DNA of 64,000 nt from Halothece sp. PCC 7418 (GTDB taxonomy: Bacteria > Cyanobacteriota > Cyanobacteriia > Cyanobacteriales > Rubidibacteraceae). The position numbers and the translations under genes are program-made. How positions within the stretch are numbered: position 1 is the stretch's first letter; each line of letters opens with the position of its first letter. The stretch covers positions 806,001-870,000 of the forward strand of contig NC_019779.1 in assembly GCF_000317635.1 (NCBI RefSeq). Reading direction: 5' to 3'. Below, piece by piece: positions 8,247-64,000 of the stretch. The notes beneath the pieces are model-generated. The model was not told where the DNA came from. It saw only the letters and a program-made list of their open reading frames with translations, and did no database searches.

Positions 8247-8465
8247 ATGGCTGGAAAAGTTAAGAAAGGGGCTTTAGTCCGCGTTATTCGTGAAAAACTT
8301 GAGAATAGTTTAGAGGCAATGGCGAGCGATAATCGCTTTCCCTCTTATTTATTTGAAAGTAAAGGGGAAATCTTAGAAACAGAAGGGGATTACGCTTTTG
8401 TTAAGTTTTATGTGGCGACCCCAGGGATGTGGCTTCGTCTTGACCAGTTGGAAGTCGCCGAATAG
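8247..8465 (+). CDS. ndhO: NAD(P)H-quinone oxidoreductase subunit O
   Basis: A 72-aa protein matching NdhO, a small peripheral subunit of the cyanobacterial/chloroplast NDH-1 complex on the thylakoid membrane, which takes electrons from ferredoxin for cyclic flow and respiration. Characteristic parts are the basic N-terminus (MAGKVKKGALVRVIREKLENS), FPSYLFESKGEI and the C-terminal LRLDQLEVAE. The whole sequence is an SH3-like small barrel without membrane segments. It is preceded by a possible 16-codon leader and followed by hairpins. Confidence 0.93.
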   Translation: MAGKVKKGALVRVIREKLENSLEAMASDNRFPSYLFESKGEILETEGDYAFVKFYVATPGMWLRLDQLEVAE

Positions 8466-9397: not shown

Positions 9398-10597
9398 ATG
9401 CAGGCACTGAGTTGGGAAGAATTAGAAAACCGTACAAATTTTGAAATTGATCGCGTTAATGGACCGACGAATGCACAATCTCGTTTACGCTTATTTGGGC
9501 GCGATGAATCGGAGGTTCGAGTGACGTTATACCGTGACCATCATGCTTGGTGTCCCTATTGTCAGAAAGTTTGGTTATGGTTAGAAGAAAAACAAGTTCC
9601 CTATCGTGTGGAAAAAGTCACGATGTTTTGCTATGGGGATAAAGAGCGTTGGTATAAGCAGATTGTTCCTTCAGGGATGTTACCTGCGTTAAAACTCGAT
9701 GATCGTTTGCTTACTGAAAGTGATGATATTTTAAGCCAACTTGAGCAAACCTTCGGAACGCTGGGTTATAGTATGAACGATCGCGCCAGTATTGCCCTAC
9801 GGAAGTTAGAACGACTGTTATTTCGGGCGTGGTGTAGTTGGTTATGTGTTCCTGCGCGATCGCGCCGTGAAGACCAGTATAACCGCCAACAGTTTACGGA
9901 TGTGGTCTCCCAAGTTGAGGACGCGCTACAACAAACCCCGGGTCCTTATTTCCGAGACAGCTTTAGCATTATTGATCTTATCTTTACCCCGTTTCTGGAA
10001 CGGATGAACGCCAGTTTATTCTATTACAAAGGGTACTCCCTACGAGAAGAAAACCCTCAACTGGGCTTATGGTTTGATGGGATGGAACAGCGATCCACCT
10101 ATCGCGGAACGCAAAGTGATTTTCATACCCACGTTCATGATTTACCCCCACAGATGGGCGGTTGCTATGCTAACGATGAACCGCAAACAAAACTGAATCA
10201 AGCACGGGTGGATCAGGGACCTTGGCTAGGTTTACCTGATGTGATGTATCCTGAACCCGAAACCTCGCGAGAAGAAGCCTTACAACGGGTTTTAAAGCAT
10301 CGAGAGAACTTGTTAAACGTGAATCCAGCCTCAGAAGACTTATTTGAGGAAGCCTTGCGCTGTGCGTTAACCAATTTGATTACTGGTGAAGTGTGTTCTC
10401 CCCCTGCTGGATCAGCATCTGCATTAAGATATTTGCGCGATCGCGTGAGTGTTCCTAGAGATATGTCGATTTATGCAGCCAAACGCTTACGAGAAGCCTT
10501 AGAAAACACCGCCAGCTTAGCTGGAGACGAACAAGGAACACCGATTCCAGTTCGACATCGGCGCGATCAAGATCCCGCGAATTTTGCAAAAGTTTGA
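9398..10597 (+). CDS. glutathione S-transferase family protein
   Basis: A 399-aa cytoplasmic protein. Residues about 45-125 form a thioredoxin-fold GST N-domain with a [14 protein letters not shown] motif (a CPYC active site, like glutaredoxin or omega-class GSTs) and the cis-proline region [12 protein letters not shown] helical GST C-domain follows (about 135-240, including [22 protein letters not shown]). The last roughly 150 residues are a cyanobacterial extension without a known domain, rich in charged residues. It is longer than usual GSTs (about 200-260 aa). Substrate unknown. The CxxC suggests disulfide or glutathionyl chemistry rather than classical conjugation. Confidence 0.82.
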
Positions 10598-10616: not shown

Positions 10617-10812
10617 ATGAAAGGTAATTGAGTGGTCACAAGAGGATCAATGCTATGTGGCTAGCTTACCTGATTTTTATATCATGCAACCTGGCACTCA
10701 TGGAGATTCTTATCAAGAAACTATTGATAACGCCCAAGATGTCATCTATCTTTTAGAGGATATTTACGAGCAAAAACAGAAGCCTCTTCCACACACTGGG
10801 TTAGTTATTTAA
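10617..10812 (+). pseudogene. HicB-like antitoxin remnant, frameshifted at the second codon
   Basis: The frame beginning at 10621 encodes a HicB-type small domain: VIEWSQEDQCYVASLPDF, then THGDSYQETIDNAQDVIYLL, ending in taa. No start codon exists in that frame. An ATG at 10617 lies one base out of frame, so the ATGAAAGGT run looks like ATGAAGGT with one A too many. There is no hicA beside it. A copy about 88% identical by eye lies on the other strand at 53.5 kb, also without a start. If translated from the internal ATG at 10681, only a fragment would result. I call it a broken gene. Confidence 0.65.
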
Positions 10813-53351: not shown

Positions 53352-53497
53352 AGTTGATTCCCGAAGTAAAAGTCAATGATAATCAAATTTTGTATAGATT
53401 TATTCTTGATTTTAGAGCAACAGTGCTCAATTTTTTCTAAGTAAATTCTAATCGGTTGAATTAAAAATCCTCATCAATTTGGTTCATGCGACAACAG

Positions 53498-53697
53498 TCA
53501 AAGGTGAACGACTAACCCAGTTTGTGGAAAAGGCTTCTGTTTTTGCTCGTAAATATCCTCTAAAAGATAGATGACATCTTGGGCGTTATCAAGAGCTCCT
53601 TGATAGGAGTCTCCATGAGTACAAGGCTGCATCATGTCAAAGTCAGGTAGGCTAGCCACATAGCATTGATCCTCTGGTGACCACTCAAGATATCTCT
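53498..53697 (-). pseudogene. HicB-like antitoxin remnant, lacking a start
   Basis: The minus-strand frame encodes LEWSPEDQCYVASLPDFDMM, then QPCTHGDSYQGALDNAQDVIYLL, KQKPFPQTGLVVHL, stop: a HicB domain. Upstream in frame a TAG is reached before any ATG, GTG or TTG. The DNA is about 88% identical by eye to the broken hicB at 10.6 kb. There is no hicA beside it. Repeat copy A lies directly upstream (53709 on), so this remnant sits at the edge of the cassette island. Confidence 0.6.
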
Positions 53698-53708
53698 AGG
53701 AATACTCA

Positions 53709-53797
53709 CGCGATCGCGCTATCTGAATCGCGCACCATAGATAAATTACAATCGTACTAAAAACTGACTTAATCAAAGATCAGTTTGCATTCATAAG
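53709..53797 (+). repeat. island repeat, copy A
   Basis: CGCGATCGCGCTATCTGAAT, then the CACCATAGATAAATT block and a tail containing AATCGTACTAAAAACTGACT, which is shared with copy H (61.5 kb). It separates the hicB remnant from the methyltransferase-nuclease gene. The central GCAAAGACGG segment of other copies is missing. Confidence 0.8.
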
Positions 53798-53815
53798 TGA
53801 TTACCTAAATTGATA

Positions 53816-56431
53816 TTATTCCTCTTCAAATGTACTATCAAGCATTAGAGAATCTTCCTCCATTTCAATTTCATTAACCTCTTCATCGGTTAATCCTAAT
53901 TGCTTTTTAGCAAAAACTCGCTTGGCACGGCGATCAAGAATTTTAATAATATTAGTCTTATCTTCTTTAATTGCCTCAATCTCTTCTTTCTGAATTAAGA
54001 CCATATAATAACGAGATAATTCCATCATTCGATACGCATATTGAAAAGCATCTCTGGTAAATTCGCCAGTGGTTACAATCATAACCACATCTGCACCAGT
54101 AACAAAAGTCATTCCAATTTCTTTAGCTAAAACTTCTACATCAACTCGTTTAGTATTTTTACACTGAATTTGCCAACGGTGATAGACAAATCGATCTGAT
54201 GCTGCTAAAACATCAACTTCTCCCTTTCCTGTTTCAAAATCTCTTTTACGCCATTTTGTAAAGCGGAGACTGGTGAGACGAATCATCCAAATAGCTAATA
54301 ATTCTAAGGCTTTCCCTTTAATATGTTTATCAGGATTTTCCAGGTCATTAATAACATCTTCAAAACTCCGATTTAACTCAGTTTGGGAAATTTCTGTTAG
54401 ATCAGCAATGGATTCTAATAACTTAGCTAATAATTCTTTTTGTGCTTTTTCTGTGAGCTTTACTAAATTTGGTTTAGCACCACGACCTGTTGTTGTTTTT
54501 TGCGTTTCAATTAAATCTGCTTGCGCTAAAGGCTGAATGATATCTTTAACAAATGACTTAGATGTGAATCTTATTTTATAGACACTTTTTGTATAGTTAC
54601 TAATCTTATTCCAAGGGGTAAAATCAGTAATACTCATCTGAAGCATTGCCAATAAAAAATATTTTTGCTCAGATGTTAGAGTGTAGATTTCATCAATATA
54701 ATCTTTATCAAGTTCTAAAATTTCATCAACTCGATCCCAATTAATCTCATATTGTTTTTCAAATACTCCTGCTTGTTCTAACCATTGGCGCATGGTGCTA
54801 ACATAAATCGAGTTAGACGAAAGAGAATATCCCATCGCTTGTAATTCTTCAGCGATTAACTCCAGTTTTGGTTTTTCACCCCTACTATTAATTGCTTCTA
54901 TTGCTTTTAATAATGACATCCCAGTTAAGTTAGTTAGAATGTGGCGAGCAAAAACAAGATCAGCTTCCTTGGGATTATTTTGATGTTCTAATATTTGTTG
55001 AGCAATCTCTGTTATTTGATATTGCCAATCATCCTCATCAATTGACTCTACTAATTGATAAGCCCGAAGAGACAGAAACGTATTCATTGACAGCTTCTTC
55101 TGGTTTTCTTTCTTTTGAAAATCATTTTTACCCGAGTGATTGGCATAGTAGCGTTCCACAATTTTTTCCTGCAATATATTGCGATCATGTTGGCAATCTT
55201 CACAAAGTTGTATAATTCCCAATAAATTCATCGTTTTGGGTTCAAATTGATGCCCATAAGTAAATTTAAGCGGTTTATTTTCCATTTCGTTACTGGTAAT
55301 TTCAAATAAGTCTAACTGTTTCAACTTTTGATTGTCTTTGCTAGCAAATGTATTTTGAATACAATCAGGAACTAATGCTAATGCTTTTGCCTTAATTTCT
55401 TCCCGATCCTTTAATGGCGTAACAACCAAGGGAGCATCTTTTTCAAATCGAAACTGTGAGGCTTGAAGATACTTTTCATCAAGTTCAAAGGCTAACCAAC
55501 GGCGATCGAGTGTCTCAGCAACTCTTCCTGTCAAGTTTGAACCCGCAAATGGATCAAGTACAAGGTCACTTGGTTCAGTACAAAGTGCAATAAAAAATTC
55601 AGGGAGCGCTTTAGGAAACCGAGCAGGATGAGCTTTGATTCCTTCTTCTTTGCAGCGACGTTGATAGTAATCATTAGAAGCAGTATTAGAAGCAGCAATG
55701 ACATTAACAGGTTGCGCTAAATCATGCTCTAAAATCCAATTGAATTCACCTAATACAGGTTGACCGATCGCGCTTTCAGAGGCAAAACTAGGATCAGAAA
55801 TCAGGTTAGGAGGAATCGCGCCACCGCGATCATTTTTAAACTTAGTAGAAATATCATGTCCAGACGGGCGTAACTTTGCGTCATAGCCATGTTTTAAAAG
55901 ATTTTTCATCGCTTTACTGTAAGGACGTAAAACGTTTTTATTATTGGCTTTTGGGTGGGGGTCTTTTGATAGCCACCACACGGTATTCACTGCATCTTTT
56001 ACTCGTTCTCTCCGCACCGTCACCCACTCAGCAGGGGTAGGAAGTTTAGCTGGGTTGTACCAAAAAAGCTCTTGAGCCAGAAAGAAACCTAAACCTCCTT
56101 TTGATTGAGGTTTACAAAGTTCTACCACTAACTCAAAATGATACAGAGAACGTACTGGGAATCCTTTAACCCAACTCCCGCCAATATCTATGACCAAAGA
56201 CCCTTGAGGTTTAAGAAGACGATAAAACTCACTCGCAAATTCCTTAAACCATTCGAGATATTGATGAGCATCAACATTTCCATACTCCTTTTTTCTGACA
56301 AGAGCAAAGGGAGGGGATGTACAGATGAGATCAACGCTTTCATCTGGGAGTTCTGCCATAAGTTCTAGGCTATTGCCAAGATAGGAAGCACCGAGATGGG
56401 TTTTATAGTAAGGAATATTGCTAAGTTTCAT
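53816..56431 (-). CDS. DNA methyltransferase fused to a C-terminal Mrr-like restriction endonuclease domain
   Basis: An 871-aa protein. The N-terminal third is a beta-class amino-methyltransferase: motif IV is TSPPF (residues 38-42), and the AdoMet motif follows later as VLDPFAGSNLTGRVAE (about 293). TSPPF is usual for N4-cytosine enzymes. The middle (about 400-690) is helical with a winged-helix-like segment (about 600-690). About 700-830 is an Mrr-type PD-(D/E)XK nuclease: KALELLAIWMIRL, GEVDVLA (Asp about 738), WQIQCKN (QxK, about 755) and VTTGEFTRDAF. It therefore looks like a single-chain restriction-modification protein with the nuclease at the C-terminus, the reverse of the common type IIG order. 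No separate endonuclease or specificity gene is adjacent. Confidence 0.8.
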   Translation of the reverse strand: MKLSNIPYYKTHLGASYLGNSLELMAELPDESVDLICTSPPFALVRKKEYGNVDAHQYLEWFKEFASEFYRLLKPQGSLVIDIGGSWVKGFPVRSLYHFELVVELCKPQSKGGLGFFLAQELFWYNPAKLPTPAEWVTVRRERVKDAVNTVWWLSKDPHPKANNKNVLRPYSKAMKNLLKHGYDAKLRPSGHDISTKFKNDRGGAIPPNLISDPSFASESAIGQPVLGEFNWILEHDLAQPVNVIAASNTASNDYYQRRCKEEGIKAHPARFPKALPEFFIALCTEPSDLVLDPFAGSNLTGRVAETLDRRWLAFELDEKYLQASQFRFEKDAPLVVTPLKDREEIKAKALALVPDCIQNTFASKDNQKLKQLDLFEITSNEMENKPLKFTYGHQFEPKTMNLLGIIQLCEDCQHDRNILQEKIVERYYANHSGKNDFQKKENQKKLSMNTFLSLRAYQLVESIDEDDWQYQITEIAQQILEHQNNPKEADLVFARHILTNLTGMSLLKAIEAINSRGEKPKLELIAEELQAMGYSLSSNSIYVSTMRQWLEQAGVFEKQYEINWDRVDEILELDKDYIDEIYTLTSEQKYFLLAMLQMSITDFTPWNKISNYTKSVYKIRFTSKSFVKDIIQPLAQADLIETQKTTTGRGAKPNLVKLTEKAQKELLAKLLESIADLTEISQTELNRSFEDVINDLENPDKHIKGKALELLAIWMIRLTSLRFTKWRKRDFETGKGEVDVLAASDRFVYHRWQIQCKNTKRVDVEVLAKEIGMTFVTGADVVMIVTTGEFTRDAFQYAYRMMELSRYYMVLIQKEEIEAIKEDKTNIIKILDRRAKRVFAKKQLGLTDEEVNEIEMEEDSLMLDSTFEEE

Positions 56432-56607
56432 TCAACTGCTAAATTGAGAGCTACAATTGCACTTTTGATTTTACGGGTTTGGCATCACTAAGATCGGTAG
56501 TTTGAGTTTAGGTAACGAAACCTAACATCAGCTATGTGAATACGCTGCCATCAATAGATTACATTAGCTCCCTTTTGAGTGGGCATTGCTTAGCCTATAG
56601 CTTAGCA

Positions 56608-56794
56608 TTACTGATCCACAACCAATTGTTTCTCATTCACAGGTGTCTGTTCCTGCTTCCCATTAGAACGCTGATCGCCGTAATACATCAAGGGAATAAT
56701 AAACAGCGTGAGTGCAGAAGACGTTAACATCCCCGTTAATAAAGTCCATGCTAACCCAGACCACACGGGATCGCTGAGAATCGTTAACGTTCCT
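56608..56794 (-). pseudogene. 3'-end remnant of an RND efflux transporter gene
   Basis: The minus strand encodes the last about 62 residues of an RND permease (TLLTGMLTSSALTLFIIPLMYYG, then a polar tail ending NEKQLVVDQ) with its own stop codon. The similarity to the RND gene at the right edge of the window (63778 on) ends abruptly at about 56794. DNA identity to that copy is high but not perfect (by eye about 85-90%), so this is not a fresh duplication. It marks a junction inside the island. Confidence 0.8.
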
Positions 56795-56820
56795 ACACTC
56801 CAATCATCCCTGTAGCATAA

Positions 56821-56956
56821 ACATTGATCGCTGTTATTTTTTATAGAAAGTAGCGCGTTTGCAAAGCATGGACGGAGTCCAATCGCGTCTCATTTCTTTC
56901 CCAACGCGATCGCGCCTTGCAAAGACAGCATCCGATCGCGCACCATAGATAAATTC
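56821..56956 (+). repeat. island repeat, copy B
   Basis: The longest copy. It has the 35-bp leader (56823-56857) that is identical in copies C and F, then GCAAAG.ATGGACGGAGTC-like sequence, the CTCATTTCTTTCCCAACGCG block with HIP1, GCAAAGACAG, and the CACCATAGATAAATTC block. It lies between the RND remnant and the Rpn pseudogene. Confidence 0.85.
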
Positions 56957-57057
56957 GCAATTTCAGATCAGTTACTCCGTCAATGTCACTTTCCAATTGA
57001 TAAAATACGAATCAATTATCGCAGTTTTCTTTAAATCTTGAACAACCATTTTCTTTT

Positions 57058-57938
57058 GTGTCTAAAACGCCTTTTGATCAACTTGCCAAACAACTTTTCG
57101 AGGAACTTCTGCAACCCTTTGGAGAAGTACAAATCTCCTTAGAAGTGCCAGGGGAATCCCATTTAGTTGATATTTATTTTGCGCCGATTGCATACAGGAA
57201 TCAAGATCGATCTCCCTTGGGACTCTTGGGGGAAATGATCACCTCACCCTGTTTATTTGAACCGTTCCGAAATCCTCCTTCTCCATCAGATTACCATCGC
57301 TGTAAACTGAAGCATGAGTGGATTATTGCCGACTTTTATCGTCAGCGCGATCAGAGCTTATCTTTACAAGAACTCCCTATTTTATGGATTATTTCACCTA
57401 CCCTTAGCCAAAATTTCCTCACTTCAGCAGGAGCCATTGCAAAAGAGGATTGGTGTCATGGGGTATATTGCGGTGCGACCCCGCGGAGGCTTCCTCCGCA
57501 AGGGAACGCGCACCAAGACGGAAAGGGGAGATGGATCGCTGTGGGTTGATCGCTGTCCATCAACTGCCCAAAACTCCAGAGACTTTATGGTTGAGGTTAT
57601 TGGGAAAAGGAAACTTACAACAGCAGGCGATTCAGGAAGTCATGGCGCTACCCGAAGCCGATCAAAGGCGAGAAGAAGCGTTAAGATTATTATCAAACTG
57701 GAAGATGATCATTGAAACTGTCCCTCAAATTGAACAGGAAGAAGGAGCGTTAACAATGGCACTATCACAAGCCTTTTTGGAATGGGAAGAAAAGACTAAG
57801 CAAGAGGCTAAACAGCAAGCGAAGCGAGAAATTGCTCTTAATCTTCTCCGTGCTGGGATGAGCCCTGAACAGGTTTCCCAATTCACAGGACTTAGCGCAG
57901 ATACTGTAGAAGACTTACGCCAACAAATTGGAGAATGA
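57058..57938 (+). pseudogene. broken Rpn/DUF4351-type nuclease-transposase family gene
   Basis: Two frames together match one cyanobacterial protein family of about 270 aa. The first (start GTG) gives SKTPFDQLAKQLFEELLQPF through WCHGVY. The second, from about 57520, gives GLIAVHQLPKTPETLWLRLL, ALPEADQRREEALRLLSNWK and the coiled tail ending TGLSADTVEDLRQQIGE. The first half has the family's PD-(D/E)XK-like nuclease core. The break is at a 43-bp palindromic insertion (57472-57514), after which the frame is lost. Rpn proteins promote RecA-independent recombination. This copy should be inactive unless frameshifting rescues it. Confidence 0.75.
57472..57514. repeat. 43-bp palindromic insertion in the Rpn-type gene
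   Basis: Ends GGTGCG and CGCACC are inverted, and the centre GCGGAGG-CTT-CCTCCGC is a perfect 7-bp hairpin. Composition is far more GC-rich than the surrounding gene. It looks like a small dispersed repeat that landed in the gene. Its length alone does not restore the frame, so a few flanking bases must also have changed. Confidence 0.65.
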
Positions 57939-57952
57939 AAACTCATAATCAT

Positions 57953-57994
57953 AAACATTGATCGCTGTTATTTTTTATAGAAAGTAGCGCGATT
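57953..57994 (+). repeat. island repeat, copy C (leader only)
   Basis: Contains the same 35-bp leader as copies B and F (57957-57991) without a mismatch, then leaves the repeat after GCGCGATTG. It separates the Rpn pseudogene from the hicA/hicB pair and overlaps neither. Confidence 0.85.
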
Positions 57995-58022
57995 GTCATT
58001 CCTTAGAAAATTAGAGTTGACA

Positions 58023-58249
58023 ATGCCAAGGAAAATCAGAGACTAAAAGCCCAAATTGTACGAGAAGGGTTTGTTCTTCTACCAAAGCGAGGGAAAGGAA
58101 GTCATCAGCGTTGGCGACATCCACTCTTGAATAAAACACTAACGATTTCTGGTAAAGATGGAGATGATGTTCCCCCCTATCTGGAAAAACAGTTGTTAAC
58201 GTTACTCAACAAGCTAGAACAGTTAAGAAAGGAGGATGAAAATTCATGA
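58023..58249 (+). pseudogene. hicA: HicA toxin gene with a frameshift at codon 7
   Basis: The ATG begins MPRKIRD and then meets TAA. One base further the frame continues without a break as LKAQIVREGFVLLPKRGKGS, HQRWRHPLLNKTLTISGKDG, DDVPPYLEKQLLTLL to a stop that overlaps hicB by 4 bp. This is a complete HicA (double-stranded RNA-binding fold mRNA interferase with the GSHQ/RW histidine region). A single missing base in the seventh codon (GAC where GAGC is expected) explains it. No alternative start exists in the open frame. The toxin should be off. Confidence 0.8.
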
Positions 58250-58464
58250 ATCAATATAGCATGGTGATTCAGTGGTCAGAGGAAGACCAGTTATTTCTAG
58301 TGACAATTCCCGAGTTCAGCGATCGCGTTATGATGCCTTGTACTCATGGAAAAACCCGCCAAGAAGCTACTCATAATGGGGAAGAAGTGATTGAGATGTA
58401 TTTATCCGCATGGAAAAATGAAGGGCAATCCCTCCCAGAACCTTCGACGCTTCAGATTGCCTAG
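58246..58464 (+). CDS. hicB: HicB family antitoxin
   Basis: A 72-aa intact antitoxin: VIQWSEEDQLFLVTIPEFSD, CTHGKTRQEATHNGEEVIEMYL, a partially RNase H-like HicB fold. HicB proteins mask HicA and, when they carry a DNA-binding part, repress the operon; this short form has no obvious DNA-binding domain. It overlaps the frameshifted hicA by 4 bp and is now an orphan in function. A ribosome site AAAGGAGG lies 10 bp upstream inside hicA. Confidence 0.85.
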   Translation: MNQYSMVIQWSEEDQLFLVTIPEFSDRVMMPCTHGKTRQEATHNGEEVIEMYLSAWKNEGQSLPEPSTLQIA

Positions 58465-58544
58465 GATTTCCAAGTTTGATGAGAGAAACTTATCTTATTC
58501 GGGCTAAAACTAAGTTGTTAAGAGTAAGGTTTTGTTATGGACGT

Positions 58545-58637
58545 AATCGCGCTGTTCTCATTTCTTTTCAAACGCGATCGCGCCTTGCAAAGACGGAATC
58601 TGATCGCGCACCATAAATAAATTCCAATCGCGCAAAG
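58545..58637 (+). repeat. island repeat, copy D
   Basis: AATCGCGCTGTTCTCATTTC, HIP1, CCTTGCAAAGACGGAATCTG, CACCATAAATAAATTCC and AATCGCGC. It separates the two hicAB modules, which face each other. Confidence 0.9.
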
Positions 58638-58677
58638 CTTTCCCTTAGAAACAATCCCTCTAAAGAGCTTACTTTAT

Positions 58678-58917
58678 TCATTTATTTTGGCTGAAAATTT
58701 TCTGCCTACTACTAGCAACAGGGATTGCTTGATTTTTCTGTTGATAATCTTCTTTCACTAATTCCCAAGCAATTTTCAATTCTTCTAGAGCTTCTTGAGG
58801 CGTATCTCCAAAGGCAGAAATATTTGGCATTTCCTGAAAATGAGCAAGCCAGTCTCCTTGTTCATCAACATATAAATTAATAATAAAACCGTCAAAATTA
58901 TAATTTTCTAAAGACAT
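58678..58917 (-). CDS. HicB family antitoxin (second module)
   Basis: A 79-aa protein of the HicB/UPF0150 type: FDGFIINLYVDEQGDWLAHFQEMPNISAFGDTPQEALEELKIAWELVKEDY. It probably neutralises the HicA encoded directly upstream, with which it overlaps by 10 bp. Order toxin-antitoxin is normal for hicAB. No C-terminal DNA-binding domain is visible. Confidence 0.85.
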   Translation of the reverse strand: MSLENYNFDGFIINLYVDEQGDWLAHFQEMPNISAFGDTPQEALEELKIAWELVKEDYQQKNQAIPVASSRQKIFSQNK

Positions 58918-59153
58918 TGTTTTTCTTCCTCTTGATAATTAAGAAATTGTTGGACTTGATAAAGTTTTGCTTTGCCATCTTTACGAGGTTGAATGGGTAA
59001 TAATTGACGATTCGGTGAACACCATAAGCGATGACTTCCTTTCTGACGACTCAATATCCATCCTGATTGTCTCAATAAGGTTTCAAATTCCTCGAAAGTA
59101 AGATTTTGTGGTCTCTCCTTTGCTTTTTTCTCTAACTTCTCTTTTTTGGTCAT
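58908..59153 (-). CDS. HicA family toxin (second module)
   Basis: An 81-aa basic protein: the HicA core TFEEFETLLRQSGWILSRQKGSHRLWCSPNRQLLPIQPRKDGKAKLYQVQQFL with the catalytic His in GSHRLW. It should cleave mRNA when HicB is degraded. The N-terminal Lys-rich stretch (TKKEKLEKKAKERPQ) is longer than in most HicA proteins. It appears intact. Confidence 0.85.
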   Translation of the reverse strand: MTKKEKLEKKAKERPQNLTFEEFETLLRQSGWILSRQKGSHRLWCSPNRQLLPIQPRKDGKAKLYQVQQFLNYQEEEKQCL

Positions 59154-59245
59154 CTTCTAATTTTAGAATAATGTACCCTTTTAGTACCATGAACTAGGAC
59201 ACTAGAATTGTCTATCAGTTGGATTAAACAATTTACTATACTTGG

Positions 59246-59345
59246 GCGCGATCGCGCAGCAAAGTCTAATCGCGCTGTTCTCATTTTTTCTAAACGCGAT
59301 CGCGCAGCAAAGACGGAGTCTGATCGCGCACTATAGATAAATATT
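59246..59345 (+). repeat. island repeat, copy E
   Basis: Begins with an extra GCGCGATCGCGCAGCAAAGTCT, then CGCGCTGTTCTCATTTTTTC, HIP1, CAGCAAAGACGGAGTCTGAT and CACTATAGATAAAT. The leading part repeats the centre, so the copy is partly duplicated. It separates hicAB from higBA. Confidence 0.9.
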
Positions 59346-59448
59346 GAAATGCTTTATTCTTCAAGTACAATCGACCAATCATGGAATGAATTGATAACTT
59401 GTTTGATGATCTGTCATAGCAATAAGTCTCCCAAAATTAACCTGATCG

Positions 59449-59724
59449 CTATTTTTCAAAAGAAATTTTTAGATGAGTTCCAGTGGCTTTAGCAATACGC
59501 TCTAAGGTTTCAATTGTTGTATTTTGTTTACCGCTTTCAAGGCGTGCTATTGCCGATTGTTTCGCGTTCATGCGTTTGGCTAATTCTTGTTGAGTGATTC
59601 CCGCCTGAGTACGGGCTGTAATAATTGCCGAGGCTAATTCAAACTCAGAAGCCAGTTCTTGATATGCTTTCTGGTAATCTGGATTTTTTTGCCATTGTTG
59701 ATGTAAATCTGTAATTTTTGTCAT
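59449..59724 (-). CDS. higA: XRE family antitoxin (HigA type)
   Basis: A 91-aa protein with an N-terminal helical part (LHQQWQKNPDYQKAYQELASEFELASAI) and a C-terminal helix-turn-helix: ITQQELAKRMNAKQSAIARLESGKQNTTIETLERIAKATG. It should bind its toxin and repress the operon. Its start overlaps the toxin stop by 4 bp; toxin first, antitoxin second is the usual higBA order. Confidence 0.88.
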   Translation of the reverse strand: MTKITDLHQQWQKNPDYQKAYQELASEFELASAIITARTQAGITQQELAKRMNAKQSAIARLESGKQNTTIETLERIAKATGTHLKISFEK

Positions 59725-60053
59725 TCCTCTATCTCCTTGGCTCGTTGTAAGGCAAGTTTAATTTCTTTTCGGGGGGTTTTTTGCGTTTTTTTAATGAAGA
59801 CTCGAACAACAACAACTCGCTTGGGTTTTGCGGTTACATATAAAGCACGAGAAATGCCATCCTTACCTGTCATCCGAATTTCCCATAAGAAACCTTCTAA
59901 GTGTTTAACATAAGGTCTCCCAACGTTGGGTAACCCATGTTCAGCAATTAGTTCAGCAATTCTCACAAATCGTGCTTTCATATCCTCTGGTAAAGAGGAC
60001 AATTCTTCGTCCACGATTTCACTAAGAGTTTCCACACTCCAGTTCATGGACAT
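59721..60053 (-). CDS. higB: RelE/HigB-like toxin (phage Gp49-type)
   Basis: A 110-aa protein of the RelE superfamily: VDEELSSLPEDMKARFVRIAELIAEHGLPNVGRPYVKHLEGFLWEIRMTGKDGISRALYVTAKPKRVVVVRVFIKKTQKTP. HLEGFLWEIR and the VFIKKTQKTP tail are the HigB/Gp49 hallmarks; the family cuts mRNA on the ribosome. Upstream sequence (ATTATAACATATATGTTATAACG) is palindromic and may be the operator for the HigA repressor. Confidence 0.88.
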   Translation of the reverse strand: MSMNWSVETLSEIVDEELSSLPEDMKARFVRIAELIAEHGLPNVGRPYVKHLEGFLWEIRMTGKDGISRALYVTAKPKRVVVVRVFIKKTQKTPRKEIKLALQRAKEIEE

Positions 60054-60072
60054 AACTCATCATAGACATGAC

Positions 60073-60093
60073 TATTATAACATATATGTTATA
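60073..60093. promoter_or_regulatory. palindromic candidate operator upstream of higBA
   Basis: TTATAACATATATGTTATAA is a perfect 20-bp palindrome about 20-40 bp before the higB start on the minus strand. XRE-type antitoxins such as HigA bind such palindromes to repress their own operon. The function is inferred from position. Confidence 0.55.
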
Positions 60094-60126
60094 ACGCGAT
60101 AGTAAAGAGGAATGATGCGTTATAAG

Positions 60127-60200
60127 GATTGATCGCTGTTATTTTTTATAGAAAGTAGCGCGATCGCGTCTCATTTCTTTCCCAACGCGATCGCGGCAAG
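60127..60200 (+). repeat. island repeat, copy F
   Basis: Carries the 35-bp leader (60128-60162) identical to B and C, then HIP1, TCTCATTTCTTTCCCAACGC with a second HIP1, and stops before the AAAGACGG part. It separates higBA from brnTA. Confidence 0.9.
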
Positions 60201-60243
60201 CAGGAATTGCTTGAAGAATTATGATCGCACTTAGTAGGAAAAA

Positions 60244-60450
60244 TTACTTCACTCCTTTGCTCAAGTCAGAATCCATTTCCTTTCTCACAATTTCATTAAC
60301 CAATTCATTCCAATCAACTCCTTTTTCCTCAGCTTTTTTTCTCACAAATTCCTGTACTTCATCATCAAGATAGATAGGAGATTTAAACGTTGCGTTAGGA
60401 TAATAAAATTTACCCCGTTCTGCTTTAGAAAAGTCATATTCAGCTTTCAT
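60244..60450 (-). CDS. brnA: BrnA-type antitoxin (ribbon-helix-helix)
   Basis: A 68-aa protein: KSPIYLDDEVQEFVRKKAEEKGVDWNELVNEIVRKEMD. The beta strand plus two helices of a MetJ/CopG-like DNA-binding fold are evident, so it should dimerise, bind BrnT and repress the operon. Its ATG overlaps the toxin stop by one base (TGATG). Confidence 0.85.
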   Translation of the reverse strand: MKAEYDFSKAERGKFYYPNATFKSPIYLDDEVQEFVRKKAEEKGVDWNELVNEIVRKEMDSDLSKGVK

Positions 60451-60743
60451 CAGTCTTCTTCCTCATAACAACGAATTTCCTGCTTAGTTGCTCGTCTTGC
60501 GGAAATAATTCTCACATCAAGAACATTCGCATCCTCATCAATCGTATGAACGACTAGCAAATATTGACCGCTTGATATTACTCCCAGTGTAATCCATCGT
60601 TCTTCAACTAAGCTGTGTTCCTCATCAAAGATTGTCAAAGCCATCGGATCTGAGAAAACCCCCTCTGCTTCTCGAAAACTAACTCCATGTTTCTCTAAGT
60701 TTCTCTGAGCCTTAATTGGATCCCACTGGAAACGATACTGCAT
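60450..60743 (-). CDS. brnT: BrnT family toxin
   Basis: A 97-aa protein with all BrnT marks: FQWDPIKAQRNLEKHGVSFREAEGVFSDPMALTIFDEEHSLVEERWITLGVISSGQYLLVVHTIDE, VRIISARRATKQEIRCYEE. BrnT is a RelE-fold ribonuclease, induced by stress. It is intact. Toxin-antitoxin order as in known brnTA operons. Confidence 0.92.
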   Translation of the reverse strand: MQYRFQWDPIKAQRNLEKHGVSFREAEGVFSDPMALTIFDEEHSLVEERWITLGVISSGQYLLVVHTIDEDANVLDVRIISARRATKQEIRCYEEED

Positions 60744-60845
60744 CTATTGTCGGTTTAGACTTAAAAATATTGGCAAACCAGAGAACAATACCTTGTGAGA
60801 GGTGACTCGTCAATTTCAATACCTGATATTTTGAGAATTAAGAAG

Positions 60846-60908
60846 TCGCGATCACGTATCATTTCTTTCCCAACGCGATCGCGCAGCAAAGACGGAGTCT
60901 GATCGCGC
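60846..60908 (+). repeat. island repeat, copy G
   Basis: GCGATCACGTATCATTTCTT, CCCAACGCGATCGCG, CAGCAAAGACGGAGTCTGAT, CGCGC. It ends exactly at the stop codon of yoeB (TTA on this strand), with no spacer. It separates brnTA from yefM-yoeB. Confidence 0.9.
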
Positions 60909-61172
60909 TTATTCTTGGTAATGATACCGACAGGAAAGAATGGTCAAATAATTATCATCAACAGCATAAACAAGACGATTGGTTTCATCAATACGACGAG
61001 ACCAAAAACCTGATAAATTCTCTCTTAAGGGTTCAGGTTTTCCGATTCCTTCAAAGGGGTTAGATAAAGCATCTTCGATTAATCGATTGATTCTTTTTAG
61101 AGTCTTTTTATCTTGAGATTGCCAATAAAGATAGTCTTTCCATGCTTTACTACTCCAAGCTAATTTACGCAT
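60909..61172 (-). CDS. yoeB: Txe/YoeB family toxin
   Basis: An 87-aa RelE-fold ribosome-dependent mRNA interferase. Motifs: LAWSSKAWKDYLYWQSQDKKTLKRINRLIEDALSNPFEGIGKPEPLRENLSGFWSRRIDETNRLVY and the C-terminal CRYHYQE with the catalytic Arg, His and Tyr. I use the ATG (MRKLAW); a TTG lies one codon upstream. It overlaps yefM by 8 bp. Its stop codon touches repeat copy G. Confidence 0.94.
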   Translation of the reverse strand: MRKLAWSSKAWKDYLYWQSQDKKTLKRINRLIEDALSNPFEGIGKPEPLRENLSGFWSRRIDETNRLVYAVDDNYLTILSCRYHYQE

Positions 61173-61425
61173 CAATTAAATCATGTTCTTGTGTTTGCCC
61201 TGCTTTATATTCGGCGATCGCTGCTTCTAAATGTTGAGCATTAGCAGGAGAGTTTAATAGGTAAACTGTTTCCATTAGGCTGTCATAATAACTTTTAGAC
61301 ATGACAACTGCATCTTCTGCATCTCTCCTGACGATAACAGTACAATTTTTGTCGTTGGCTACTGTATCAAGTACAGATTTGAAGTTTTTTCTCGCTTCGC
61401 TAAAGTTGACAATGTTCATGTTCAT
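61165..61425 (-). CDS. yefM: YefM/Phd family antitoxin
   Basis: An 86-aa protein: MNIVNFSEARKNFKSVLDTVANDKNCTVIVRRDAEDAVVMSKSYYDSLMETVYLLNSP, the typical Phd/YefM DNA-binding dimer fold, with a C-terminal disordered toxin-binding tail. It represses the operon together with YoeB. Antitoxin first, toxin second is the normal order. Confidence 0.93.
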   Translation of the reverse strand: MNMNIVNFSEARKNFKSVLDTVANDKNCTVIVRRDAEDAVVMSKSYYDSLMETVYLLNSPANAQHLEAAIAEYKAGQTQEHDLIDA

Positions 61426-61511
61426 GGGATTTGTACATAGTTCAGTACAAGTATGATTATAGCGTTTCCAGAGAGTGATGATGTTGGGTTTGATCCGTCA
61501 ACTCAAACTAT

Positions 61512-61614
61512 GAACGCGATCGCGTAACAGATGCAGAGTCTGATCCCCTAGCATAGATAAATTCAAATCGCACTAAAAACTGACTCAATCATTCATTATT
61601 TTGCATTTATAAAG
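61512..61614 (+). repeat. island repeat, copy H
   Basis: GAACGCGATCGCG, a degenerate centre (CAGATGCAGAGTCTGATCCC), the CATAGATAAATTCAAATCGC block, then ACTAAAAACTGACTCAATCA and a TTTGCATTTATAA tail, the last two shared with copy A. It separates yefM-yoeB from mntA-hepT. Confidence 0.85.
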
Positions 61615-61748
61615 GTTTCGCCTCATTGAAAAACTGCTCTCGAATTAAAGGAGTTAACCTCTTGTTCAATGATGATTTCTACCTTACACTTTATCATTAA
61701 TTTAGTTACAATGTTTGTAAATCAATTGCATTCACACTTTTAATTATT

Positions 61749-62072
61749 ATGGTGACTCATAATACACTATTCATGATTGATCGCAATTTTGTTATTTCTA
61801 CTCTTGAAGAAAATTTAGATAAAGTTAAAAGTTTTGGAATTAAATCTCTTGCTCTTTTTGGTTCTGTTTCTCGTAATGAAGCAACGCCAGATAGCGATTT
61901 AGATTTTTTGGTAGAGTTTGAAGGTGCTGCGACATTTGATGGTTATATGGATCTAAAGTTTTTTCTTGAAGATCTCTTTAATAAGAAGGTCGATCTGGTA
62001 ACTCGACGATCTCTCAAACCGCAACTTACTGAAAAAGTTCTAAAAGAAGCAATTTATGTCACGGAGTCTTAA
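61749..62072 (+). CDS. mntA: MntA-type antitoxin (minimal nucleotidyltransferase)
   Basis: A 107-aa nucleotidyltransferase with the diagnostic GSX10DXD motif (GSVSRNEATPDSDLDFLV, about residue 37). In MntA-HepT systems this enzyme AMPylates the toxin's tyrosine and so silences it. The start may be the first ATG or the one eight codons later (MIDRNFV). It overlaps hepT by 17 bp. Confidence 0.9.
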   Translation: MVTHNTLFMIDRNFVISTLEENLDKVKSFGIKSLALFGSVSRNEATPDSDLDFLVEFEGAATFDGYMDLKFFLEDLFNKKVDLVTRRSLKPQLTEKVLKEAIYVTES

Positions 62073-62418
62073 ACTTTATTTAGAAGATATACTTAACAGT
62101 ATTCGTAAGATAAAAAGCTATACGAACCAAATGACTCAAGCTGAGTTATCAGAAGATGAACTTAAGTTTGATGCAGTTGTTTATAACCTACAAATTATTG
62201 GAGAAGCAACAAAAAATATTCCAGAAGATATCAGAGATCGACAAATACATATCGAATGGAAAAAGATAATTGCGCTACGGAATATTATCACTCATGCTTA
62301 TTTCTCTATCGATGATGAAATTGTCTGGGATATCATTCAAACAAAACTCGATCCTCTCAAAACTTGTATAGAATTGATTCTTAAAACTGAAAATTTGGAA
62401 GATAATAATGAGTTGTAG
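62056..62418 (+). CDS. hepT: HepT-type HEPN ribonuclease toxin
   Basis: A 120-aa DUF86/HEPN protein. The active RX4HXY motif is RNIITHAY (about residue 75). Other family parts are LYLEDILNSIRKIKSYT, FDAVVYNLQIIGEATKNIP. It cuts RNA when not modified by MntA. Its stop codon is the first triplet after GAGTTG and lies at the very start of repeat copy I. Confidence 0.92.
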   Translation: MSRSLKLYLEDILNSIRKIKSYTNQMTQAELSEDELKFDAVVYNLQIIGEATKNIPEDIRDRQIHIEWKKIIALRNIITHAYFSIDDEIVWDIIQTKLDPLKTCIELILKTENLEDNNEL

Positions 62419-62484
62419 CGCGCTAGCAAAGACGGAATCTGATCGCGCACTATAAATAAATTCCAATCGTACTCAAAAATTAAT
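62415..62484 (+). repeat. island repeat, copy I
   Basis: GTAGCGCGCTAGCAAAGACG, GAATCTGATCGCGCACTATA, AATAAATTCC, AATCGTACTCAAAAAT. It includes the hepT stop codon and separates hepT from the DUF3800 gene. Confidence 0.9.
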
Positions 62485-62509
62485 AAATGCTCCCTTCAGC
62501 AAATGAATA

Positions 62510-63649
62510 TTAATTTTCTGTTGTTCTATTTTCAAGAAATTCAGTTACATATTCTATCGCATTAGTTCCCTCTCCGGTTTGAGCATCTAAAGATTCAGGT
62601 GTAAAATTTTGTTGTGGCCAGTGAAGTTCAATTATAAGTTCAAAAAGATTAAGGTTATCGAGTTTTTTAAAGAACCGTTTTTCTTTTTTTAGAGTATTTT
62701 TGCTCTTGTTGGATTTTTTATTGATACCCTCTATATAGTTACTTGCCCAAAAGGAGATACAACCCGCCATAATATCTGCAAGTTGAATTCTAGGATCAAC
62801 CTTAGAATTTTCAAATTTAATTTTGCGAGCTTTTAATGGGAACATGTAGCTACGTGTATCATATCCAATTAGAGTTGTTTGTGTATCTGGCTCCATCATC
62901 ATTTCTAAAATATCTTGTGTTGCAGAGATTGGTTTTGAATCATCATGTATTAAATTGAATGGGCGATTTAATTCTTCACCCCATCGAACACAGTGTAAAT
63001 AAAAAGATGGGATAGCTGGATCTAAAGATAGATGATCATTTCCTAATAAAATTTCTTCTATATAGTCATAGGATTTAAGTATGATACTCAGTAAACCTTG
63101 AAAATATTCAACCTCTTGATTATCACCTAAATTTAGCATTGTTTCTACAATCGAATAAAATGCTTCTATAGAAGAAACTGTTTGATAGCGAATCATTGCG
63201 ACAAAATTATGAAGTAGTTGCTTAAAAGCAGATTCACCATAAAACGCGGGGAAACAAAAATAACATAGATTAGATAAAGCTATATTATAACCATATTTAT
63301 ATATATCAATATCATCTTGATGAGCACATTTTTCTAAAAGAATATCGATGATTTTGCCTATAGCTAAATATTTTTTGTGATAAATACTTACTTTTATTTT
63401 TTCGTGATTTGCTTGCGATGATGAAAGAAATCGAACTAGGTTATTTTCTCTTGATTTATTTCCTTTAATATCATCAGCAAATTTAGGATCGCTTACATGA
63501 TTACCAGAAAAAATAGAATTAATAATTGAATTGGCTTCTGATTTAGAATAATTAACAGATGCTAAGGTAAATATTGGTTGTTGAAAATCTACAAGATTCG
63601 CACCAGTATTACCAGATTCATCAAATGCGATTAGAGGATTTTCTGCCAT
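62510..63649 (-). CDS. DUF3800 family protein (RNase H-like fold)
   Basis: A 379-aa protein with the DUF3800 marks: IAFDESGNTGANLVDFQQPIFTLASVNY at the start (DES), and VDPRIQLADIMAGCISFWASNYIEG near the end (QLAD). Family members are predicted RNase H-like enzymes often found in defence and mobile islands. The gene is more AT-rich than the backbone and uses AT-ending codons heavily, which suggests recent acquisition. Function unknown. Confidence 0.8.
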   Translation of the reverse strand: MAENPLIAFDESGNTGANLVDFQQPIFTLASVNYSKSEANSIINSIFSGNHVSDPKFADDIKGNKSRENNLVRFLSSSQANHEKIKVSIYHKKYLAIGKIIDILLEKCAHQDDIDIYKYGYNIALSNLCYFCFPAFYGESAFKQLLHNFVAMIRYQTVSSIEAFYSIVETMLNLGDNQEVEYFQGLLSIILKSYDYIEEILLGNDHLSLDPAIPSFYLHCVRWGEELNRPFNLIHDDSKPISATQDILEMMMEPDTQTTLIGYDTRSYMFPLKARKIKFENSKVDPRIQLADIMAGCISFWASNYIEGINKKSNKSKNTLKKEKRFFKKLDNLNLFELIIELHWPQQNFTPESLDAQTGEGTNAIEYVTEFLENRTTEN

Positions 63650-63777
63650 ATTAAAATTAAGGTTTGTTTTTACTTCTAATATAGCAGTCAGAAATTATGT
63701 ATGAGCTTTAACCGTCCCTAGATTCTAGTGTTAGGGGAAATCAATTATTAGTTTTTAAGTTAATACTGATCTATAAA

Positions 63778-64000
63778 TTAATTATCCGCAACCAATTGTT
63801 TCTCATTCACCGATTTAGATTCCTGCTTCCCATTAGATCGCTGATTGCCATAATACATCAAAGGAATAATAAACAGCGTCAATGCAGAAGAGGTTAACAT
63901 CCCTGTTAATAATGTCCAGGCTAACCCAGACCACACGGGATCGCTGAGAATGGTTAACGTTCCTAACATGGTGGTGACACTGGTGAGGAGAATCGGGCGA
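63778..64000 (-). CDS. efflux RND transporter permease, C-terminal end (rest beyond window)
   Basis: The visible 74 codons encode the end of an AcrB/CzcA-type inner-membrane pump: RPILLTSVTTMLGTLTILSDPVWSGLAWTLLTGMLTSSALTLFIIPLMYYG, then a polar tail (NQRSNGKQESKSVNEKQLVADN). This is the last two transmembrane helices. The frame is open to the window edge, so the 5' part lies to the right. A diverged duplicate of the last about 62 codons is inside the island at 56.6 kb. Confidence 0.88.
   Translation of the reverse strand, partial: RPILLTSVTTMLGTLTILSDPVWSGLAWTLLTGMLTSSALTLFIIPLMYYGNQRSNGKQESKSVNEKQLVADN

Follow-up and report, generated by a model that had tools for sequence, protein, structure and literature searches.

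A one-direction repeat with joints at HIP1 punctuates an array of addiction and defence modules in Halothece sp. PCC 7418

When toxin-antitoxin and nuclease modules stand in a row with a repeat between each and the next, is the joining unit the gene or the repeat? The question is raised by a locus of Halothece sp. PCC 7418 at the far end of a stretch of 64,000 nucleotides (NC_019779.1, positions 806,001 to 870,000), which we call the window and in whose coordinates positions are given. Eight modules (toxin-antitoxin, nuclease and restriction-type) lie here in a row, with one locus-specific repeat between neighbours. A first-pass annotation of the sequence had proposed that nine related, HIP1-rich repeats, all reading in the same direction, are the joining units of a cassette-like array, as in an integron, with no integrase visible. 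Below, G000 denotes the organism's own genome (4.18 Mb), G001, G002, G004 and G005 genomes of the same genus, and G002 the sister species. The layout of the island is as follows.

53511-53688, minus strand: hicB remnant, a 91% copy of the stretch at window 10628-10805
53816-56431, minus strand: N6/N4 DNA methylase with an Mrr-type nuclease domain (Pfam PF01555, 3.8e-41; PF04471, 3.7e-9; PADLOC MTase_II)
56607-56795, minus strand: remnant of an RND efflux gene 3' end, 89% identity to 63777-63965
57058-57938, plus strand: Rpn-family nuclease, broken frame in two overlapping ORFs (TIGR01784 at 9.8e-8 on the second ORF, below cut-off)
58023-58464, plus strand: hicA, without an open frame of 50 aa, and hicB (Pfam HicB_lk just under cut-off)
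58678-59153, minus strand: hicB and hicA (HicA over cut-off; hicB, without a match, named by position)
59449-60053, minus strand: HTH antitoxin and Gp49/HigB-type toxin, of higBA type (domain matches)
60244-60743, minus strand: brnT toxin (BrnT, 3.8e-28) and presumed brnA, the latter without a match
60909-61425, minus strand: yoeB-yefM (domain matches)
61609-61688, minus strand: remnant of an mntA 3' end, opposite to the adjoining intact module, 80% to the G001 mntA 3' end
61749-62418, plus strand: mntA-hepT (NTP_transf_2 and HepT; NCBIfam MntA below cut-off)
62510-63649, minus strand: DUF3800 protein (domain match)
63777-64000, minus strand: 3' end of the intact RND efflux gene, the locus anchor common to G000 and G002

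In Pfam the second Rpn ORF has a weak YbjN match alone. The mntA remnant sits between the repeat called H below and the intact mntA-hepT, and the flank joined to it is common to repeat A and to the solo repeat copy of G004.

Comparison of 53400-64000 with itself by BLAST, made with no prior assumptions (repeats of 28-400 nt, E <= 1e-4), returns two clusters of direct repeats, the RND pair and a single cluster of exactly nine intervals, and these are the nine repeats that had been proposed. All nine lie on the plus strand, with modules on both strands, and from B to I there is, as the annotation had it, exactly one repeat per boundary, so that the one direction and one repeat per module of a cassette array are both found here. 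At the same threshold the search yields no inverted pairs; a laxer seed search adds some, such as hicB against the hicB remnant and short matches between HIP1 palindromes. The copies, described in terms of three blocks (L, M and R) that are taken up below, are:

Repeat A, 53721-53796 (53690-53796 with its left part), plus strand: end of the R block, then the Ra flank
Repeat B, 56816-56961, plus strand: L block, a 24-nt element set in HIP1, M block, R block
Repeat C, 57950-57995, plus strand: block L alone
Repeat D, 58544-58630, plus strand: M, HIP1, R; its left and right halves occur in two separate G002 junctions
Repeat E, 59263-59342 (59203-59342 with its long left flank), plus strand: long left flank common to the G004 solo copy
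Repeat F, 60122-60195, plus strand: L, HIP1, M, HIP1, then a flank also present at the G001 brnTA
Repeat G, 60847-60908, plus strand: M, HIP1, R; ends at the yoeB stop codon
Repeat H, 61513-61612, plus strand: HIP1 beside the yefM-side flank, degenerate R, Ra flank
Repeat I, 62418-62469, plus strand: R block, without HIP1

The description of the repeats as HIP1-rich stands for A, B, D, E (two HIP1s), F (two), G and H and falls for C and I, which have none. Between 53700 and 62480, nine of the 11 HIP1 octamers lie in repeats if the 25 nt to the left of each repeat are counted in, a margin that A needs; the first 53.5 kb of the window hold 33.

Could such a family be the work of chance, or be a generally abundant intergenic repeat? 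Chance is excluded by the 22-nt core of R, which with up to three mismatches occurs four times in the window as against 0.00 in 100 shuffles. As to abundance, a hand-made 136-nt consensus finds nine matches in G000 at E <= 3e-13, every one of them inside the island and on the same strand, whereas the next best has E = 0.003 (best 40 of 390 first-look candidates scored), and a 70-base stretch of D finds six at E <= 1e-5, again all in the island, with one elsewhere at E = 0.006 (best 40 of 99 first-look candidates scored). Strong matches in G000 are thus all in the island for both queries (nine of nine and six of six, among the best 40 first-look candidates scored), and the even genome-wide spread that the annotation had named as evidence against its reading did not occur in this search of the whole genome and its relatives with consensus and single-copy queries. 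A 74-base stretch of F, comprising L and M, matches five places in the G000 island (E <= 1.4e-4) and has copies in both G002 and G004; elsewhere in the genus it gives short matches only, of 22-48 nt and E >= 5e-5 (best 40 first-look candidates per genome scored), and the HIP1 end of block M is therefore weakly dispersed.

Of 388 genomes of the order, 11 have a match at E <= 0.001, namely four of the genus and seven others (best two candidates per genome scored). The seven have one match each, of 22-41 nt and E >= 5.7e-5, in six cases within the HIP1-rich first part of the query, and we take them as chance. Convincing copies outside G000 are found in the genus only, G002 having two and G004 a single full one; weaker are one short further match each in G004 (E about 5e-5) and G005 (9e-5) and a relic in G001 (E = 1e-4). 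The genus is represented by six genomes, one per species, two of them in more than 200 contigs and one of these 85% complete. With strong matches confined to the island and convincing copies to the genus, an abundant genome-wide repeat is rejected.

The build of the copies is a mosaic. In an alignment of the nine island copies with two from G002 (r1 and r2) and one from G004, block L is present in B, C and F, block M in B, D, E, F, G, r1 and the G004 copy, and block R in A, B, D, E, G, H, I, r2 and the G004 copy. M and R meet at HIP1. To the left of this point one finds M, the yefM-side flank (H and r2), the end of hepT (I) or a piece of another gene (A), and to the right of it either R or the flank that the G001 brnTA also has (F and r1). 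C shares nothing with A, H and I and is joined to the family through B and F. In A, a HIP1-bearing piece of unrelated coding sequence is joined to the end of the R block; this left part (53690-53728) matches the coding sequence of a glutathione-S-transferase-type gene (window 9398-10597) around the gene's HIP1 at 10435. Directly behind that gene lies a hicB-like piece without a Pfam match (window 10628-10812), which by our reading may be the source or sister of the hicB remnant at 53511-53688, 43 kb away.

The left and right arms of the copies vary independently. Among 12 copies, with the G001 relic included and C left out, left-arm and right-arm similarity are uncorrelated by Mantel permutation (r = 0.04, P = 0.35), the correlations within an arm, between neighbouring stretches on one side, being modest (r = 0.32 and 0.33). 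Where does the homology between copies stop? In the 32 pairs over the score limit, among 55 pairs of 11 copies, it has its left end at a HIP1-type site in 22 and its right end at one in a single pair, counts that we offer as a description without a P value because pairs share copies, and that are to be read against a background of about 9% of positions near a HIP1-type site, or up to about 18% if either copy counts. The list of such sites includes variant spellings picked by eye, and an end was counted if near a site in either copy.

The R block has relatives seated in HIP1 itself. In B an extra 24-nt element (56858-56881) lies between the GCG and the ATCGC of a HIP1, and 24-nt relatives of R with up to three mismatches occur at 12 places in the six genomes, 0 to 4 in each, the one in G000 being that in B. 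Six of these 12 have the GCG/ATCGC setting (B, two in G001, one in G002 and two in G004), and in three such places the flanks look coding by eye. The element within HIP1 in coding-looking sequence of G001 and G004 can be seen at loci L175, L179 and L187, near base 1510 on the reverse strand. A stricter pattern for relatives of R occurs at three places in G000 and one in G002, all in the arrays. The R of the arrays is a shortened relative, with GCG before it and ATCGC after it in seven of the 10 R-bearing copies (A, B, D, E, G, I and r2) and without this setting in H, the G004 copy and the G001 relic; E has an extra partial R at 59247-59275.

This seat recalls SDR5, which inserts between nucleotides 3 and 4 of HIP1 (Elhai 2008, as cited in PMC4390886). 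The likeness is that the 24-nt element (six of 12 places) and the array R (seven of 10) are both found between GCG and ATCGC; it is a likeness of the seat in HIP1, and the array form differs in being shortened and located at the locus. The portion of PMC4390886 available to us speaks of evidence for site-specific recombination at HIP1, of none for homologous recombination, and of a HIP1 that may even be without function; recombination at HIP1 between plasmids is cited in the available text of PMC9239245. With the HIP1-linked recombination of Akiyama 1998 and Robinson 1997, as cited in PMC4390886, the present array has in common that the exchange joints lie at the palindrome GCGATCGC, and it differs in that plasmids or cloned sequences are concerned there (PMC4390886, PMC9239245, as far as their available parts go), whereas here several modules with locus-specific repeats form an array in the chromosome.

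The sister species offers the test of whether the repeats are the places where arrays differ. In G002, a single-contig genome, an array lies beside the same RND gene as in G000, in the order: a binding-protein-dependent permease gene (by our reading pstA), hicA-hicB with hicA cut, r1, yefM, r2, hicBA, an RND remnant, an AbiEii-type piece and RND. Three modules can be compared, the hicB, yefM and hicBA of G002 against the hicB, hicBA, higBA, brnTA and yoeB-yefM of G000. The repeat r1 consists of the left of D (58162-58582) followed by F (60158-60221), and r2 of the left of H (61165-61569) followed by the right of D (58571-58714). The best breakpoint of r1 is at the first HIP1 and that of r2 within AACGCGATCGCG, and in both the repeat goes with the right-hand module. 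The two breakpoints do not share a HIP1 (in copy F the two HIP1s are 27 nt apart), so a single-point exchange would not give both without later conversion. The proposal that the repeat is the joining unit is thus supported: the order in G002 differs, both of its array junctions are recombinant repeats, and the arms vary independently. The evidence for shuffling comes from one other species with a clear array and from two junctions, at one genome per species; in these the changed order with junctions inside repeats that marks a cassette array is found.

The annotation had further expected that differences between strains would begin and end inside the repeats. This is so for the two recombinant junctions of G002 and not so for the missing brnTA, yoeB and front of hicA, whose ends fall within modules or in the flanks of modules. 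By eye, the brnTA flank behind r1 passes directly into the end of yefM, and brnTA, G and yoeB were probably lost in G002, which implies that brnTA beside yoeB-yefM would be the older order. Both arrangements can be explained by transfer of a circle-borne block, or by tandem duplication through unequal crossing-over followed by deletion, and both routes need exchange within a repeat. The orientation of repeat to RND gene is the same in G000, in G002 and in the weak relic of G001 (E = 1e-4). RND 3' ends are duplicated in G000 (window 56607-56795 and 63777-63965) and in G002 (L036:8546-8639 and 9388), framing different inserts, which looks like repeated entry at the gene end. The 3' end of the G002 hicB has an insertion of about 110 bases (L036:7882-7994), absent in G000, with inverted ends and MITE-like by eye.

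Relatives of single modules in the genus supply further edges. With a brnTA relative in G001 the similarity ends on one side at F's HIP1 (60186) and on the other at 60821, 26 nt short of G. In G002 the hicBA match stops at 59201, the long form of E starting at 59203 by the G004 copy, and the mntA-hepT match stops at 62413, adjoining I. The Rpn remnant of G002 lacks its middle; its match begins at 56999, about 37 nt beyond B, and ends within C at 57975, and part of block L is therefore natural Rpn flank. A higBA relative matches over the genes alone (59450-59994) and is uninformative on the repeats. Rpn-like genes (by reading; Pfam finds DUF4351 at the C-terminus alone) adjoin repeats in G001 and G004 as well, which is noteworthy in view of a reported link of Rpn proteins to RecA-independent transfer (PMC5350276, in the part available) and of their later description as toxin-antitoxin systems (PMC10327210, likewise). 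Elsewhere in G002 four Rpn-like matches about 1.08 kb apart (G002:C1:630998-634902) suggest a tandem Rpn array, and further ones lie near 3226594-3229434 and 3490231-3491986.

Among HicB-related loci (best 80 of 110; 3.7 to 16.3 kb), a sample picked by HicB and not by arrays, 10 of 80 have at least three direct repeats of 28-400 nt, with at most four copies, and the six of these 10 clusters whose sequences were inspected are, by eye, pieces of genes, repeats of palindromic or low-complexity type, or perhaps protein repeats. The HIP1 content and the cyanobacterial relatives of HicB both mark the organism as a cyanobacterium. At locus L141, which belongs to an uncultured Halomicronema, the final 140 or so bases of the ABC-transporter gene that precedes the modules recur once behind hicAB and once behind a second hicB (7507-7646, 8287-8422 and 10064-10204), all in one direction, so that here, too, a toxin-antitoxin module is joined through a duplicated gene end.

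The likeness to an integron did not survive the search for its parts. The absence of an integrase was upheld: the integron integrase model TIGR02249 has no match in G000 or G002 at E <= 1e-5, and none over cut-off in the six genomes (G001, G004 and G005 have matches below it) nor in 14 control genomes, a set that thus contains no positive control. The core motifs of attC sites are RYYYAAC and GTTRRRY, and no pair of them 40-167 nt apart is found on either strand of 53400-64000. Nor is there a consistent hairpin: of the seven copies folded, among nine, six have z between -1.8 and +0.3, and F (z = -3.8) is the only one clearly more stable than its shuffles. On integrase, attC core sites and conserved fold alike the locus fails as an integron. 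No recombinase was recognised among the 18 locus ORFs tested, and no transposase among their Pfam matches; the Rpn piece matches, below cut-off, a family also named putative transposase. No Rfam family reaches its gathering score in the island, no tRNA anchor was found at it, and the exact R pattern has no occurrence in viral contigs. A plasmid search with the island as query gave 52 records with a match, of which the 15 listed cover at most 8%, over toxin-antitoxin genes where annotated.

How, then, would such an array come about? The repeat-punctuated array itself is confirmed, and we consider it probable that its addiction and defence modules were put together and reordered through recombination of the direct repeats with one another, the joint being HIP1. 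The 3' end of the RND gene would be a site of insertion or shuffling, and most modules would be headed by a HIP1-bearing repeat, the DUF3800 gene and hicA-hicB following copies without HIP1. The direct repeats, with their HIP1 joint, would provide shared homology, and modules would be gained, lost or reordered by unequal crossing-over, by deletion or by excision of a circle and its re-entry, each exchange adding, removing or moving a unit of repeat plus module. Because the joint would fall at the HIP1 that marks the repeat's left edge, the repeat and the module to its right would travel together, and such an exchange of units works only with repeats of one direction, as is seen in nine of nine. 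The joining may be done by host recombination, a route made plausible by a small E. coli island that has no own recombinase and that, by the available part of PMC5426353, is excised between short direct repeats without RecA. The likeness is mobility by way of short direct repeats and host functions; one island is excised there, whereas nine repeats and eight modules, known from sequence alone, are concerned here. Because most modules are addiction modules, loss of a whole module would probably be costly, which would help to keep the array. We infer the enzymatic route, the circle and this stabilising role of addiction; the route itself may be ordinary short-homology recombination or recombination specific to HIP1.

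The latter would make the array the chromosomal product of a dedicated candidate cyanobacterial activity that cuts and joins at HIP1, with R as a small dispersed element seated in HIP1. The one-sided gathering of joints at HIP1-type sites (22 of 32 against one of 32) is what such an activity would leave, as are the position of both G002 breakpoints at HIP1, the fusion in A of an unrelated HIP1-bearing coding piece to the R block end, and the 24-nt relative of R between GCG and ATCGC in six of 12 places (B and five in three relatives), and the available portions of PMC4390886, on site-specific recombination and SDR5 insertion, and of PMC9239245, on plasmids, point the same way. No enzyme is recognised among the 18 locus ORFs, however, the two breakpoints are in different HIP1s, C and I have no HIP1, and HIP1 is common (33 in the first 53.5 kb), yet G000 has no second array of the repeat family; a dedicated activity is, on balance, quite unlikely. 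Somewhat unlikely, too, is that the repeats are a passive relic with no continuing role in joining, derived from an old intergenic segment that spread as duplications occurred and modules were inserted, and that their recombinant look stems from ancient unequal crossing-over and decay. Several copies are indeed eroded, hicA, Rpn, hicB and mntA remnants are decayed, and the Halomicronema locus has a module and its neighbour's 3' end tandemly duplicated in another cyanobacterium; but G002 and G000 differ by exchanges inside the repeats, and the cargo differs between repeats, so that tandem duplication of one unit does not build this array.

The remaining two readings fare worse. Shared promoters, terminators or regulatory RNAs would account for repeats that are intergenic and adjoin every module, but not for a direction that is constant whatever the strand of the neighbour, and no Rfam match at gathering scores and no consistent hairpin were found; we think a regulatory role very improbable. 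That the repeats are attC sites, of an integron or of a cluster (CALIN) without its integrase, is largely contradicted and scarcely credible. The array shares with such arrays its mostly toxin-antitoxin-type modules on both strands, its short repeat in one direction for each module and an order that differs between relatives; it differs in having no integrase match in G000 or G002 (and none over cut-off in six genomes, a search that lacked a positive control), no RYYYAAC...GTTRRRY pair on either strand at a spacing of 40-167 nt, folding stability at the level of shuffles for six of the seven copies folded, and modules that mostly comprise two genes and lie on both strands.

The reading that we prefer is thus recombination between direct repeats, joined at HIP1. 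In the titles and abstract openings of the literature matches listed, among which subscription papers are largely missing, no description of such an array was recognised. What we have is a natural addiction and defence array that behaves like a set of cassettes and fails the three integron hallmarks tested, with a sister species caught with some of the modules reordered. That order, with its breaks inside the repeat, suggests gene shuffling without an integron enzyme, and the array brings a chromosomal example to the long-standing question of how HIP1 relates to recombination. A bolder proposal, to which we lend rather little credence, is that cyanobacteria own an integrase-independent gene-cassette system with the HIP1 palindrome as joining site, in which addiction and defence modules headed by a HIP1-seated repeat would be cut and joined to build and reorder chromosomal arrays. 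If true, a cassette system joined at HIP1 would give HIP1 a concrete biological product.
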